In this document: positions 5,242 to 10,614 of the stretch, piece after piece
Position numbering within the stretch: position 1 is the first letter of the stretch
Layout of the letters: each line of letters opens with the position of its first letter
Assembly (NCBI GenBank): GCA_021780475.1
Contig: JAJXYR010000014.1
Coordinates: forward strand, 1 to 36,268
Source: Pseudomonadota bacterium
GTDB taxonomy: Bacteria; Pseudomonadota; Gammaproteobacteria; Steroidobacterales; Steroidobacteraceae
Length of the DNA: 36,268 nucleotides
Direction of reading: 5' to 3'
Translations under genes and position numbers: made by a program
Notes under the pieces: generated by a model
What the model saw: the letters and a program-made list of their open reading frames with translations, nothing else
Databases searched by the model: none
What the model was told of the DNA's origin: nothing

Positions 5242-6435
5242 TCAGCTCATGACGCGGCAAATCGCCCCGGCTAGATAAGCCGCATTGCCGGGAAGGACGC
5301 CGGCGAGGTTCATGCGGCTGTCCGCGGTCATGTAGACGTGGTGTTCGACCCGCAGCCGCTCCACGGCGTCCGGCGGCGCGCCGAGCAGCGAAAACATCCC
5401 CCGCTGACGCTCCAGGAAGCCGAACGCGTCGTCGCCGCGCAATTGGCGCAAATGCCGCGCCAGCAGCGCGCGCATGTCGCGTATGCGATCGCGCATGGCC
5501 GACAACTCCCCGAGCCAGGTCCGACGCAGGTCGGCATCAGCCAGAATCAATGCCGCGATTGCTGCGCCGTGGTCCGGAGGCATCGAGTAAATGCTGCGTG
5601 CGACCTGCAATACGTGGCTCTTCACCGCCGCCGCGCGCTCCTCGTTCTCGCAAACCGCCAGCAGCGCGCCGACGCGCTCACGGTACAGGCCGAGGTTCTT
5701 CGAGAACGAGACGGCGATCAGGCATTCCGGCACGCCGCCTGCGACGAGCCGCACCGCGGCCGCGTCGGCTTCCAAGTCCCCGCCGAACCCCTGATAGGCG
5801 AGGTCGAGGAACGGAACCAAGCGGCGGCGGTGCAGGACCTCGAGCACGGCGTCCCACTGGGCCGCGTCGAGATCGGCGCCAGTGGGGTTATGGCAGCAGG
5901 CGTGAATCAGCACGACATCGCCGGCCGGCGCGCGCTCCAGGTGGTCGATCATCGCGTCGAACGTGAGCCGATGGGCGGTCGCGTCGTAATACGGGTAGCG
6001 CCGCAGCTCGAACCCCGAACTGCCGAGCAGCGGAACGTGATTTCCCCAGGTTGGATCGCTGACATGAACGGATGCCGCGCGCGATGCCGTGCGGATCAGT
6101 TCGGCGCCGACCCGCAGCGCACCGCAGCCACCGGGCGCCTGAACCGCGACCGTGCGCCGATCCAACAGGGCGGGGTGGGCGGGCCCGAGCACGAGGCCGG
6201 CCACGAGTTCGTTGAACTCGGCGCGCCCGGCGGGAGCAACGTAGGCTTTCGTGGTTTGCGCGTCGATCACCGCCCGTTCGGCGCGCCGCACGCAGTCTAG
6301 GACCGGCGTGTCGCCGTTGGCGTCCCGGAATACCCCGACGCCGAGATCGACCTTGAGCGGCGACGGGTCTGCCCGGTACCGTGCCATGACGCCGAGGATC
6401 GCGTCCTCGTTCAGGCGATTCAAACTTTGGAACAC
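5242..6435 (-). CDS. tyrB: aromatic/aspartate aminotransferase, TyrB/AspC family
   Basis: This is a PLP-dependent class I aminotransferase that moves amino groups between aspartate or aromatic amino acids and 2-oxoglutarate. It has 397 residues, the same length as E. coli TyrB. Family positions are intact: PGGCGALRVG (about 101-110), CCHNPTG with N183, D211 and Y214 in DLAYQGF, the PLP lysine K246 in SFSKNLGLYRERVGA, R254, and R374 near the C-terminus. The GTG start at 6435 has AGGAGGG upstream. Whether aromatic or aspartate substrates are preferred cannot be read from sequence, so the symbol is tentative. It ends facing the HDOD gene and is divergent from the outer-membrane barrel gene. Confidence 0.9.
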   Translation of the reverse strand: MFQSLNRLNEDAILGVMARYRADPSPLKVDLGVGVFRDANGDTPVLDCVRRAERAVIDAQTTKAYVAPAGRAEFNELVAGLVLGPAHPALLDRRTVAVQAPGGCGALRVGAELIRTASRAASVHVSDPTWGNHVPLLGSSGFELRRYPYYDATAHRLTFDAMIDHLERAPAGDVVLIHACCHNPTGADLDAAQWDAVLEVLHRRRLVPFLDLAYQGFGGDLEADAAAVRLVAGGVPECLIAVSFSKNLGLYRERVGALLAVCENEERAAAVKSHVLQVARSIYSMPPDHGAAIAALILADADLRRTWLGELSAMRDRIRDMRALLARHLRQLRGDDAFGFLERQRGMFSLLGAPPDAVERLRVEHHVYMTADSRMNLAGVLPGNAAYLAGAICRVMS

Positions 6436-6483: not shown

Positions 6484-6557
6484 TTGGAGGCTGAATTCGT
6501 GCGATTTGCCCCGGAAAGTTGCTAAGCTCGCTGCCCGGATTTTGCGGAGGAACTCGA

Positions 6558-7817
6558 TTGGTCGGACGCGCGCATTGGGGGCTGCGGATGCTGGCGCTCG
6601 GCGCCGCCGGATGGGCGTTTTCCGGGACGGCCGCTGCCGTGCCGACCAGCGCCTTCGCTCGCTGGCTCGATCCCGCAACCGCGCCGTTCATTCCGGTGCC
6701 GGAAATCGACGTCGATCCGAACAGCGGCACGACGCTCGGACTGATCCCCACCTGGCTGGTGACCGACGACAAGGCGCAAATCCGCAAGATCATCGCACCG
6801 GACATCATCCACAACCCCAACTTTGGCTGGGGCGCGCGCGGACGGATCTTTTCCTATCCGTCGGATGACACGCAGTGGTCGCTGGTGGCGGGCGCCAAAC
6901 AGCGCGTGGAGAGCGAATTCGACTTCGAGTACGAAACCGGGCGGCTGCGTGCTTCCACCTGGTCGTTCAATGCGAGCGTCGTCTACGACCGCAGCGGCAC
7001 GCCGCGATTCTATGGGATCGGCAACAATTCACGCATTTTCAACGAAACCAACTACACGGATCAGCAGAAATACGTGCAGACGACGCTCGGCTGGAATCTG
7101 TCGCACGCATGGCAGATCTCCTACACGCTGAGGATCCGGTCGGTCGCCATCCAACCCGGGTCGCTCGCGCGCTTCGCCTCGATTCAGACCCGATTCCAGG
7201 GATTGCTCGGCATCGGCGTCAATCATGAAGTCCTGAGCCGGATGCAGGTCGCCTACGACACCCGCAACGACACGACCGTGCCGACGAAGGGCGGCGCGTA
7301 CGTGATATTCGGTGGCGTCGCCTCGAGCCGGGGATTCATGAACGATTCGCTGTACAGCGTCGCCGGATTCGACGGCCGTCAGTTTTGGTCGGCCGGACCG
7401 GACGCCGTCATCGCGGCGCACGTCGCACTGCGCTACATGCCGGGCGAATCGAACGTGCCGTTCTGGAGCCTGTCCAGCATCGGCGGCGACCGCAGTGTGC
7501 TCGGCGAGGCGCAGCCCTTGCGCGGTTTCGGCGACGGCCGGTTCTACGGACGGAATTCGTTTTCCTCGAGCATCGAGTATCGCCGCCGCGTGCTGTCGCT
7601 CAACGCGATGTCCACGCACATCGACGTCGAGTTGGCGCCGTTCATAGATTTGGGCGACGTGTTCGCCCATTCCCGCACGACGCCGCTCGCGCACCTGCAC
7701 CGGGTCGTCGGCCTGGGCTTCCGCGGCATCGCGCCGCCGTTCGTCGTCGGCTACGTCGATTTTGGGTACGGCAGCGAAGGCGCTGCGGTATTCACCGGCA
7801 TCAACTACCCCTTCTAG
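6558..7817 (+). CDS. BamA/TamA-like outer-membrane beta-barrel protein (surface antigen family)
   Basis: The 419-residue product has an N-terminal signal (hydrophobic MLALGAAGWAFSG, cleavage probably after TAAA) followed directly by a beta-barrel rich in alternating aromatic and polar strands. It ends in GINYPF, with the terminal phenylalanine typical of Bam substrates. Features such as EIDVDPNSGTTLG at the start and QPLRGFGDGRFYGRNS near the end, the latter like the Omp85 loop-6 region, point to the bacterial surface antigen (D15/Omp85) barrel. There is no room for POTRA domains. I chose the TTG at 6558, preceded by GCGGAGGA; ATG 6588 is an alternative but would shorten the signal. The gene is one base from an MMPL transporter and surely co-transcribed. 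Confidence 0.8.
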   Translation: MVGRAHWGLRMLALGAAGWAFSGTAAAVPTSAFARWLDPATAPFIPVPEIDVDPNSGTTLGLIPTWLVTDDKAQIRKIIAPDIIHNPNFGWGARGRIFSYPSDDTQWSLVAGAKQRVESEFDFEYETGRLRASTWSFNASVVYDRSGTPRFYGIGNNSRIFNETNYTDQQKYVQTTLGWNLSHAWQISYTLRIRSVAIQPGSLARFASIQTRFQGLLGIGVNHEVLSRMQVAYDTRNDTTVPTKGGAYVIFGGVASSRGFMNDSLYSVAGFDGRQFWSAGPDAVIAAHVALRYMPGESNVPFWSLSSIGGDRSVLGEAQPLRGFGDGRFYGRNSFSSSIEYRRRVLSLNAMSTHIDVELAPFIDLGDVFAHSRTTPLAHLHRVVGLGFRGIAPPFVVGYVDFGYGSEGAAVFTGINYPF

Positions 7818-7818
7818 C

Positions 7819-10020
7819 ATGCGCGATGCCCCCCTGTTTCTGCGCCTGGGACGGTTGATCGCCGGGAATCCGCGCACGGTCGTCGCGCTTTGGGCTGTCG
7901 CCATCGCGCTCGGATCCTGGGGCGCCTGGGTGTTCCCCGATGTCGCCATCGGCGGCGCGGCGAGCCTGTCGGGCAGCGCCTCCAAGGGCGTCGACGACGC
8001 TCTGCACACGGAGTTCCGCAATCCCTTTCTCGATCCGCTGCTCGTCGTCATTGCGACCCCCCGGTTGCCGATCGGGCAGGCCTCGTTCATCGCCTGGCAG
8101 GGGCGTGCCGTGCGGACGCTCGCGGCGTTGCCGGACGTAGGTGGCATCGACGCCGATGCCAACGCCGCCGATCCCGGCCGCCGTCCGGCGGATGAGCACA
8201 TGACGGCATTGATCGTCGGCATCACCGCCAAGGACGAGGCGGGACAGCATCGCTCGGTCATGCACGTCCGCGCGGCGCTGCAACCGCTGCGCCGCGCGCT
8301 GTTACGACTGGACCCGTCCGCGCGCATCGCGGTCACCGGCGGACCGGCAATCGATTACGACATCAACACGAGCAGCGCCGAGGGCGGCGACCGTGCCGAG
8401 AAGCGCGCCCTGCCGCTCACCCTCGTGATCCTGCTGCTCGCCTTCGGCACGGTCGTCGCCGCGTCGCTGCCGTTCTTGATGGGTCTGGCGTCCACCATGG
8501 TGGCGTTCGGCGCCGCTTTCGTGCTGGCCCGGCTGATGCCGGTGTCCAATCTGCTCGGCAACGTGGTGACGATGATCGGGCTCGCGGTCGGCATCGATTA
8601 CTCGTTGTTGATGGTCAAGGATTTTCGCGACTCGCTGCGGCGCGAGGACGTCACCACCGCCGTTGCGCTCACCGTCGCCGAGGCGGGTCTTACGATCTGT
8701 TGGTCCGGTTGCACGGTGGCGATCGGCATGCTCGGCCTGTTGTTCAGCCCGATCCTGGAGACCCGCAGCGTCGGCATCGGCGGCGCGCTCGTCGTGGTCG
8801 TCGCCGTGCTCGCGGCGCTGACGTTCCTGCCCGCCTGTCTCGCGCTCATCGGCCGGCATATCGAACGCTGGCCGATCGGTTTCGCGACGCTGCAACGCGC
8901 GGATCGCTCGAGTTTCTGGCGGCGCCTTGCCGCCTGGACCGTGCGCCGGCCGGTGCTGTGCCTCGCGCTGGCGGGCGGTGCCGTGCTGGCGATGTCCCTA
9001 CCGCTCGCCGGCGCCCGCAGCGGCTTCTCCGACGAGCCCTGGTTCCTGCCCAAGGGAATGGAAGCCCGTGTCGGCATGGAGATGCTGCAAGCGATGCAGC
9101 ACCACGATTCCGGACTGGACCTGCAAATCTTGGTGCGGACCACGGACGGGCAGCCGCTGCTCGCCGCGTCGCATCTGGCCGCGCTCCGCGCATTTTCCGA
9201 GCGCCTGGCCCGGGACTCTCGCACCGCGTCGCTGGTGTCCAGTTTGAGCACCGCCAAAACGGCCGCCGGCGCTCTTTATCTGAGTCGTGACGGGCGGGCC
9301 GGCTTGTTCGCGCTGACGCCGGCGGCCGCGTTGACACTGCCACAAGTGCAGGCGTTCGCGCGCGAACTGCGCGGCGTCGCGCCGGCCGGACCATTCACCG
9401 CTGAGGTTGGAGGCGCTCCGGTCTATTACAACGATTTCAGCGATTACATGTGGCGCAGTTTTCCCAAGGTGTTCGGTTTCGTCATCGTGGCGACGCTCGC
9501 GCTGCTGTTCGGCGCATTTCGATCCTATTTGTTGCCGATCAAGGCGGTGGCCGCCAATCTTCTCGCGATCGGCGCGGGTTACGGTGCGGTCGTCGCCGTG
9601 TTTCAGTACGGATGGTTCGATCGACTCGTCGGCCTGGAGCGGCCGTTCGGCGCGATCGCGCTGGAAGTGCCGATGATGATCTTCTGCCTGAGTTTCGGCC
9701 TGTCGATGGACTATGAACTGTTCCTGTTGTTCCGCATCCAGCGCGAATATCTGAAGCATGGCGACAATGACCGCGCGACCATCGACGGTTTAGCCGGGGT
9801 GGCGCCGGTCATCACCGGCGCGGGTCTCATCATGGCGGTGGTCTTCGGAGCCTTTGCCGGCGCCGATCTGCCGGCACTCAAGATGATCGGTGTCGGCTTG
9901 TGCGTCGCGGTACTCATCGACGCGACCCTGATTCGCGGCTTCGTGGTCCCGGCGTTCATGAGCCTCGCGGGCCGCTGGAATTGGTACCCCGGGCGCCGCG
10001 GAACCGACCGTCTCCAATAA
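7819..10020 (+). CDS. MMPL/RND-family transporter
   Basis: This 733-residue inner-membrane protein has the duplicated RND layout: TM1 (about 20-38), a large periplasmic domain, TM2-6 (about 195-350), TM7 (about 380), a second periplasmic domain and TM8-12 (about 545-720). Each half carries an Asp-Tyr pair in its central membrane helix, D260-Y261 in GIDYSLLMV and D631-Y632 in SMDYELFLLF. These match the proton-relay pairs known in MmpL proteins. MMPL transporters typically move lipids or other hydrophobic molecules; the substrate here is unknown. ATG 7819 follows the stop of the barrel gene after one base, so the two should work together or at least be made together. Upstream in-frame starts fall inside the barrel gene and were not used. 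Confidence 0.88.
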   Translation: MRDAPLFLRLGRLIAGNPRTVVALWAVAIALGSWGAWVFPDVAIGGAASLSGSASKGVDDALHTEFRNPFLDPLLVVIATPRLPIGQASFIAWQGRAVRTLAALPDVGGIDADANAADPGRRPADEHMTALIVGITAKDEAGQHRSVMHVRAALQPLRRALLRLDPSARIAVTGGPAIDYDINTSSAEGGDRAEKRALPLTLVILLLAFGTVVAASLPFLMGLASTMVAFGAAFVLARLMPVSNLLGNVVTMIGLAVGIDYSLLMVKDFRDSLRREDVTTAVALTVAEAGLTICWSGCTVAIGMLGLLFSPILETRSVGIGGALVVVVAVLAALTFLPACLALIGRHIERWPIGFATLQRADRSSFWRRLAAWTVRRPVLCLALAGGAVLAMSLPLAGARSGFSDEPWFLPKGMEARVGMEMLQAMQHHDSGLDLQILVRTTDGQPLLAASHLAALRAFSERLARDSRTASLVSSLSTAKTAAGALYLSRDGRAGLFALTPAAALTLPQVQAFARELRGVAPAGPFTAEVGGAPVYYNDFSDYMWRSFPKVFGFVIVATLALLFGAFRSYLLPIKAVAANLLAIGAGYGAVVAVFQYGWFDRLVGLERPFGAIALEVPMMIFCLSFGLSMDYELFLLFRIQREYLKHGDNDRATIDGLAGVAPVITGAGLIMAVVFGAFAGADLPALKMIGVGLCVAVLIDATLIRGFVVPAFMSLAGRWNWYPGRRGTDRLQ

Positions 10021-10113: not shown

Positions 10114-10614
10114 ATGGCGCTTTGGAAAGAAACGACGACGAGCGGCCTTCCCGGCAGTCCGACCCCGGCCGGCGCAACGCCTCCAGATCGGCCCCTCGCG
10201 GAAGTCGGCGCGGTGCCCGCGCCGCGCAAGGCGCGTCCCGCCGCCGAGGGAGGCGAGTCCGTCATTGCGGCCAACCTCACGATCGAGGGCAAGATCGAGG
10301 GCGCCGGCAACGTGCGGATGGCCGGCCGTTTCAAAGGCGACGTGCGCATCGACGGCAACTTCAACATCGAAACGGGCGCCCACCTGACCGGGCAGGTGCT
10401 CGCCGCGGTCGTCGTCGTCGGCGGCGAACTGCAGGGGAACATCGAATCGGCCAAGCGCGTCGATGTGCTCGAGGGAGGCGTCATCGTCGGCGACGTCAAG
10501 GCCGGGTCGATCACGGTCGCGGCCGGTTCGCGCATGCGCGGTCACGTCGAATTCGGCTGGGATGACGATAAAACCGGAAAGATCGACGGTGGTCGCAAGG
10601 GTGACGGCGTCTAG
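10114..10614 (+). CDS. bactofilin (polymer-forming cytoskeletal protein)
   Basis: Bactofilins form nucleotide-independent filaments that act in cell shape, stalk or envelope organisation. This one has 166 residues. A disordered Pro/Ala-rich N-tail (1-48) is followed by the beta-helix core (about 50-150), visible as repeating short strands: VIAANLTIEGKIEGAGNVRM, GRFKGDVRIDGNF, IETGAHLTGQV, VVVGGELQGNIES, VDVLEGGVIVGDVKAGSI. A short charged C-tail (DDDKTGKIDGGRKG) ends it. The ATG at 10114 has GGAGA upstream. It is 2 bases from a zinc-ribbon gene and almost certainly co-transcribed with it. No M23 peptidase gene, a frequent bactofilin neighbour, is adjacent. Confidence 0.92.
   Translation: MALWKETTTSGLPGSPTPAGATPPDRPLAEVGAVPAPRKARPAAEGGESVIAANLTIEGKIEGAGNVRMAGRFKGDVRIDGNFNIETGAHLTGQVLAAVVVVGGELQGNIESAKRVDVLEGGVIVGDVKAGSITVAAGSRMRGHVEFGWDDDKTGKIDGGRKGDGV

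Follow-up and report, generated by a model that had tools for sequence, protein, structure and literature searches.

In a window of 36,268 nucleotides, by which we mean the whole stretch of contig JAJXYR010000014.1 that was analysed, a gene for an outer-membrane barrel of the Omp85 type without POTRA domains is directly followed by a gene for an MMPL transporter, and this pair is the subject of the present analysis. Among relatives, presence and absence of the barrel largely parallel those of the genes for the synthesis of hopanoids, sterol-like lipids of bacteria, so the two proteins are good candidates for machinery carrying hopanoids to the outer membrane. As the first-pass annotation, made from the letters alone, had described, one base separates the barrel open reading frame (ORF; 6558-7817, stop end at 7817) from that of the transporter (7819-10020, ATG at 7819). 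The features of the site are as follows.

6558..7817, + strand: gene of the POTRA-less Omp85-type outer-membrane barrel, 419 amino acids, TTG start (PF01103, alignment, low-confidence model)
6546..6550, + strand: GGAGG ribosome-binding site of the barrel gene, found by eye, with 7 nt spacing to the TTG
6558..6638, + strand: apparent signal peptide of the barrel, residues 1-27, judged by eye from the sequence with no predictor
7521..7529, + strand: R322-G323-F324, the Omp85 L6-type RGF motif, R322 and G323 invariant in 24 of 24 aligned barrels
7641..7655, + strand: F362-x-D364-x-G366, the second Omp85 signature, its three residues invariant in 24 of 24
7819..10020, + strand: gene of the MMPL/RND inner-membrane transporter, 733 amino acids (PF03176; MmpL3 is the nearest solved relative)
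8596..8601, + strand: D260-Y261, first membrane Asp-Tyr pair of the transporter, invariant in 11 of 11 aligned transporters
9709..9714, + strand: D631-Y632, second membrane Asp-Tyr pair, invariant in 11 of 11
5242..6420, - strand: aminotransferase (PF00155), left border of the site and outside the pair, start unsettled, syntenic in relatives
10114..10614, + strand: bactofilin (PF04519), right border of the site and outside the pair, syntenic in relatives

In the Pfam scan, Omp85 (PF01103) was the sole family matched by the barrel protein (57.5 bits, cut-off 24), which scored 110.6 bits with the NCBIfam Omp85_fam model, below its cut-off of 200. No POTRA family was matched in that scan at an expectation value (E) of up to 0.1, and fewer than 40 residues lie between the apparent signal peptide and the first strand (residue 66 in a low-confidence model), too few for a POTRA domain as its size is generally given. 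With neither POTRA nor any other N-terminal domain, the protein fits the description of the noNterm group of Omp85 proteins. The last residue is Phe in 23 of the 24 aligned barrels and Tyr in one. The transporter matched PF03176 over two stretches (263.7 bits, cut-off 20.5). Thus, the earlier description of a barrel too short for POTRA domains but with Omp85-like features and a terminal Phe, and of a transporter keeping both Asp-Tyr pairs, was borne out by the profile scans and alignments. Both frames have a coding-like guanine-cytosine content at third positions, and relatives reach down to 42% identity for the barrel and 48% for the MMPL protein; therefore, neither gene is a chance ORF.

Structure models came from single-protein folding and were used for fold class only. 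The barrel model was of low confidence, with a mean predicted local distance difference test score (pLDDT) of 49 and a predicted template-modelling score of 0.50, and had 16 strands of at least three residues. The 50 PDB fold matches listed were Omp85-superfamily chains, mostly BamA, TamA and Sam50, with BamA and TamA first, and the barrel profile found no match among PDB sequences at E up to 1. The MMPL model was poor (pLDDT 65).

The family sample comprised 217 genomes (handles beginning with G), most of them incomplete assemblies, in which the barrel was sought at E up to 1e-6 and the MMPL protein at E up to 1e-30. The barrel was found in 81 of these genomes, giving 110 matches: the window, 99 further loci in 80 genomes that were examined, a second fragment of the G027 gene, and nine short fragments, most of them at the ends of contigs, that were left unfetched (G348, G352, G353, G356, G357 twice, G361, G364, G441). 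Neighbours were counted within the fetched stretch, and several of the 99 loci are cut by contig ends. A hopanoid (hpn) gene was nearby in 59 of the 99 loci, or 61 if G018 and one G443 locus, which hold remains or only part of a phosphonate operon, are added. Another 10 loci had the MMPL gene in tandem and no other sought neighbour, and two had a Rieske gene as the only one. HpnL was linked to the barrel in 26 loci and MMPL in 13, and 33 loci with only core hpn genes as sought neighbours had no linked inner-membrane partner of the kinds sought.

These hpn arrangements were varied and lay on different branches of the barrel tree. The barrel stood between HpnB and HpnA in a cluster of the order HpnH - FPP synthase - squalene synthase - cyclase - HpnG - HpnA, in second copies immediately behind HpnL, last in the order HpnL-nucleotidyltransferase-barrel, beside squalene synthase in G435, G436 and G437, and first in the order barrel-HpnJ-HpnI-HpnL in G368. 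In G342, G379 and G381 the cyclase lay about 9-10 kb from the barrel on the same contig, beyond the fetched stretch. The names of the cluster genes rest on NCBIfam models (bits/cut-off: cyclase 832/431, HpnA 502/368, HpnB 491/379, HpnH 428/225, HpnL 307/196, HpnJ 796/578, HpnI 399/310, FPP synthase 345/275). HpnG, at 164 bits, fell short of the cut-off (187); the name squalene synthase is taken from Pfam SQS_PSY (202 bits, cut-off 26), all NCBIfam scores of that gene lying under their cut-offs (117 against 287).

An MMPL match was present in 19 of the 217 genomes, 17 with an orthologue of the window's transporter and two (G020, G430) with a distant copy only. The 16 orthologues in the MMPL tree, from which G002 and G022 were omitted since their genes are split over contigs, grouped in a single clade (support 100/100), separate from four distant copies, and the G020 and G430 copies fell outside it. 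In 10 of the 17 genomes the orthologue was in tandem with the barrel, and in three more (G009, G018, G340) a barrel lay no more than 6 kb away. HpnA was its neighbour in G368 and also in G340, where it adjoins both barrel and HpnA; this makes 14 of the 17 genomes in which the orthologue has a barrel or hopanoid genes close by, the exceptions being G014, G343 and G503. In G503 (L175:6626-10844), a genome with no barrel and no cyclase match, the MMPL gene lies one gene from a hydroxymethylglutaryl-CoA reductase-like gene on the same strand, an isoprenoid enzyme whose best model scored 313 bits, below the cut-off of 442.

The barrel is the last gene of an operon found in many relatives, which consists of a cytidine diphosphate (CDP)-alcohol transferase, a 2-oxoglutarate (2OG) oxygenase, HpnL and a nucleotidyltransferase and often also includes a Rieske oxygenase nearest SdmA (150 bits, below the cut-off of 600). 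The Rieske/CDP-alcohol transferase/HpnL operon ending in the barrel was located as follows.

L071:9731-14112
L138:2-6943
L072:362-7800

In some genomes the operon also holds a phosphoenolpyruvate (PEP) mutase-nucleotidyltransferase fusion (395 bits, cut-off 320), a phosphonopyruvate decarboxylase (427, cut-off 313) and an aminoethylphosphonate (AEP) transaminase (378, cut-off 361). Operon parts adjoin HpnA or squalene synthase in G001, G027 and G380, and in G340 with MMPL between, which points to a CDP-activated head group on a hopanoid; judging from the predicted enzymes, this could be a phosphate or a phosphonate, with phosphonate possible in some genomes. Fusions of PEP mutase to nucleotidyltransferases are known (PMC6697681), and several Roseomonas species (Acetobacteraceae) are described as carrying a hopene cyclase by PEP mutase, for which an undiscovered terpene-phosphonate was suggested (PMC8776678). 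A phospholipid (Mla/MCE) system had also been considered as the setting of the barrel and was rejected, as the five-gene cluster in question consists by Pfam and NCBIfam of a Rieske oxygenase, a CDP-alcohol transferase, a 2OG oxygenase/halogenase-like gene, HpnL and a nucleotidyltransferase. In G018 (L081:5948-10097), a piece of a CDP-alcohol transferase (residues 1-95) and a piece of an AEP transaminase (residues 304-359) lie between MMPL and barrel, and these look like the scar of a deleted operon.

Across the 217 genomes, barrel and squalene-hopene cyclase occurred together in 69, the barrel alone in 12, the cyclase alone in four and neither in 132. With the 12 genomes that have only barrels lying after a TonB-dependent receptor set aside as carriers (G336, whose locus is cut short, was placed among them by the tree), the counts became 65, 4, 8 and 140. 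Eight of the 12 barrel-only genomes had the TonB-receptor type only, G000 and G008 have HpnH, and the assemblies of G028 and G443 have a completeness of 74 and 62%. As for the four genomes with the cyclase only, in G350 and G332 the contig breaks off 80 and 344 bases, respectively, past the HpnA match, so that the side on which many relatives carry the barrel is missing from the assembly; G425 has HpnN, and G427 is unexplained. In the window's genus, 19 of 23 genomes had both, two (G000, G008) the barrel only, and two (G006, G016; 98 and 99% complete) neither. When four further hopanoid proteins (squalene synthase, HpnA, HpnB and HpnH) were sought with one combined probe, G006 gave no match, and the only hit in G016 was HpnA-like, at 35%. 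The MMPL protein also followed the cyclase over the whole sample (both 15, MMPL only 4, cyclase only 58, neither 140).

HpnN, the established inner-membrane hopanoid pump, was scarce. Sought at E up to 1e-60, a threshold that a much more divergent form would escape, canonical HpnN was found in five of the 217 genomes, four over the cut-off and the fifth (G344) cut by a contig end. It was found in 4 of the 73 cyclase genomes and not found in 69. Among cyclase genomes it was present in 1 of the 65 with a barrel of other than the TonB-receptor type and in 3 of the 8 without one (Fisher p 0.003, a value that ignores shared ancestry). In Alphaproteobacteria, hpnN has been reported in all predicted hopanoid producers, and the same report calls the roles of hpnA, hpnB and hpnL unknown (PMC12583986).

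The genome of the window itself carries HpnH (438 bits, cut-off 225) on contig C61, together with an FPP synthase match, and HpnB (449 bits, cut-off 379) on contig C126, and a squalene/phytoene synthase gene on C87 runs off the contig end, its match ending at base 7029 of 7031. The relatives G005 and G015 show the gene order squalene synthase - cyclase - HpnG - HpnA. From this gene content, hopanoid synthesis in the organism is likely.

The tandem order of barrel and MMPL was found in 10 of the 217 family genomes, at 11 loci, all in the window's genus. For the barrel tree we took the window's barrel and, from 60 of the 99 loci, a single barrel each with a match of more than 330 residues; loci fetched at a later stage were not included, nor were G028, the G027 gene, which is split, and the tandem members G002, G008, G011, G012 and G022. 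In this tree the six tandem barrels present (window, G019 twice, G005, G015, G004) formed one clade with support 100/98. Class-wide, the barrel was found in 3 of 276 genomes including the window's, the other two being weak matches (E 3.5e-9 and 8.6e-9), and a stricter run at E 1e-20 returned the window genome alone. The barrel family thus seems to be limited to one gammaproteobacterial family, probably Steroidobacteraceae, as far as genome searches indicate. We rejected the pair as a universal unit, given these class-wide counts with their two weak matches and a tandem confined to one clade. The search for conserved adjacency that the first-pass annotation had proposed gave a divided answer: the tandem is a feature of close relatives, because all 10 tandem genomes belong to the window's genus, which goes partly against its idea, and elsewhere the MMPL gene lies within 6 kb of another barrel lineage.

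MMPL pumps such as MmpL3 and HpnN extract lipids from the inner membrane, powered by protons that pass via Asp-Tyr pairs. Considering the above results, we propose that barrel and transporter are the outer- and inner-membrane ends of a hopanoid export route in which the MMPL protein substitutes for HpnN, and we put the probability of this at roughly 0.47. The proposal starts from the identity of the two genes, their linkage to hopanoid genes in relatives, the co-occurrence with the cyclase and the scarcity of HpnN, all of which were observed directly; the movement of lipid, its direction, the use of a lateral seam and the contact between barrel and MMPL we infer. The MMPL protein, in place of HpnN and driven by protons through its two Asp-Tyr pairs, would lift a hopanoid or a hopanoid with a modified head group out of the inner membrane. 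The Omp85-type barrel would then take the lipid and pass it into the outer membrane, perhaps via the lateral seam of Omp85 barrels, and the periplasm might be spanned by the porter domains of the pump or by an unlinked carrier. Where relatives lack MMPL, the barrel may have other partners in the inner membrane, HpnL being the one linked to it most frequently. The first-pass annotation had suggested an inner-to-outer membrane lipid route; this idea gained a lipid setting from the hpn neighbours and the tracking of the cyclase, and as one conserved pair it stood only in part, with the tandem in 10 of 217 genomes. The tandem form is local and the lipid setting in relatives is robust; a transport role is plausible from sequence and gene context.

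Several observations weigh against this proposal. MMPL had no profile match in 63 of the 81 barrel genomes, and two more had a distant copy only. Within the window's genus the MMPL protein followed the cyclase no better than chance (both 12, MMPL only 2, cyclase only 7, neither 2). The transporter is nearer to MmpL3, HpnN ranking 42nd among its solved relatives with 13% identity. No hopanoid gene lies beside the pair in the window's clade, and no periplasmic carrier gene was seen beside the pair, in line with the missing adaptor of the first-pass description. In the broken assembly of the window genome, cyclase and HpnA were not found; the break on C87 falls where relatives carry the cyclase, which weakens its absence as counter-evidence. 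Fifteen of the 99 barrel loci had no sought neighbour at all, some because of contig ends, and 11 lay directly after a TonB-dependent receptor. Genomes with only this last type had the cyclase in 4 of 12 cases and lacked it in 8, from which we argue that the barrel family has at least two roles. Finally, the association of barrel and cyclase (Fisher p 1e-38) ignores shared ancestry and serves as description only.

The barrel could instead be a helper for the assembly or insertion of particular outer-membrane proteins, kept because the stiffer outer membrane of hopanoid producers needs such help, while the MMPL protein does a separate job. The fold matches listed, mostly BamA, TamA and Sam50, agree with this, the TonB-dependent receptor upstream of 11 barrels would be a possible client, and Omp85 proteins without an N-terminal extension have been suggested to act in membrane-protein biogenesis (PMC4104836). 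We nevertheless consider a helper unlikely, because the barrel is flanked by HpnB and HpnA in the hopanoid arrangement and by the aminotransferase and MMPL in the window's clade, although a client might be unlinked or unannotated, and because the TonB-receptor type is the very one that does not follow the cyclase. Alternatively, the barrel would belong to the hopanoid system and the MMPL protein would be an unrelated exporter that landed beside it in the ancestor of the window's clade. The restriction of the tandem to one clade, the many barrel genomes without MMPL and the failure of MMPL to follow the cyclase within the genus all fit such an accident, which we rate as rather improbable, since this MMPL lineage recurs in G009, G018 and G340 at most 6 kb from another lineage of barrel, stands beside HpnA in G340 and G368, and is near a barrel in 13 of its 17 genomes.

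It is also conceivable that the pair handles an exogenous hydrophobic compound, by uptake or efflux, and that the hopanoid link merely reflects two gene sets which the same lineages have inherited by common descent. One barrel subclade is indeed coupled to TonB receptors, which import, and the co-occurrence figures ignore phylogeny; however, the several different gene orders with hpn genes, the joint absence of barrel and cyclase in G006 and G016 and the scarcity of HpnN make this explanation very unlikely.

The barrels of the TonB-receptor type were those of L169:6565-10299, L148, L153, L165, L168, L170, L171, L184-L186 and L268. The gene of about 820 amino acids upstream of these 11 barrels had been considered as a second MMPL and was rejected, the one tested being a TonB-dependent receptor that the others match.

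To our knowledge, HpnN has no barrel partner. As an export system for triterpenoids of the RND type, the pair is a variant whose closest known counterparts are HpnN and BstABC. HpnN is likewise an inner-membrane MMPL/RND pump tied to hopanoids, and without it hopanoids reportedly do not arrive in the outer membrane (Doughty 2011, cited in PMC10942540 and PMC12583986); it differs in that the window's transporter scored 57.5 bits with the HpnN model TIGR03480, below the cut-off of 751.85, and is nearer MmpL3. BstA/BstB/BstC of Methylococcus are described as an MMPL-family pump with additional envelope components, encoded together with genes of triterpenoid synthesis, but BstB is periplasmic and BstC outer-membrane-associated (PMC10942540), whereas the window's pair includes an Omp85 barrel, and no periplasmic component was seen. 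The noNterm group shares an Omp85 barrel without any N-terminal extension; compared by its description only, it differs in that membrane-protein biogenesis was suggested and no lipid setting given (PMC4104836). Mycobacterial MmpL3, a mover of trehalose monomycolate, provides the nearest solved structures by sequence (E 1.3e-63), but the window's transporter is shorter, scored 198.4 bits with the MmpL3 model NF052608, far below the cut-off of 1400, and would be expected to carry another lipid.

A wider claim, which we regard as doubtful, is that the barrel is the first outer-membrane component of hopanoid delivery, that together with interchangeable partners (MMPL, HpnL) it replaced HpnN in one bacterial family, and that in part of this family it delivers hopanoids with a CDP-activated head group of the aminoethylphosphonate type, produced by the operon whose last gene is the barrel. 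Among the literature matches listed, judged by titles and abstract openings, none dealt with an outer-membrane barrel partner for hopanoids or a link between hopanoids and Omp85. If the claim is true, this would be an Omp85 barrel with a lipid rather than a protein substrate, and the delivery protein would be new, though a terpene-phosphonate was suggested earlier (PMC8776678). A family that has the cyclase, mostly lacks a recognisable HpnN and has a barrel that follows the cyclase makes hopanoid delivery to the outer membrane testable by deletion and membrane fractionation.

At the site between aminotransferase and bactofilin, G014 (L083) has MMPL without the barrel, and G003 (L074) has the barrel and a Rieske gene without MMPL; as these contents differ, the site has changed several times. 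G019 carries two versions of the aminotransferase-barrel-MMPL-bactofilin locus on different contigs (L084, L085), by duplication or through a mixed assembly. The remaining window ORFs scanned, which were part of those in 10983-34791, were ordinary: GTP cyclohydrolase, a TraB-like gene, dihydroorotate dehydrogenase, UvrA, PhoH, acyl-CoA dehydrogenase and DUF1800.

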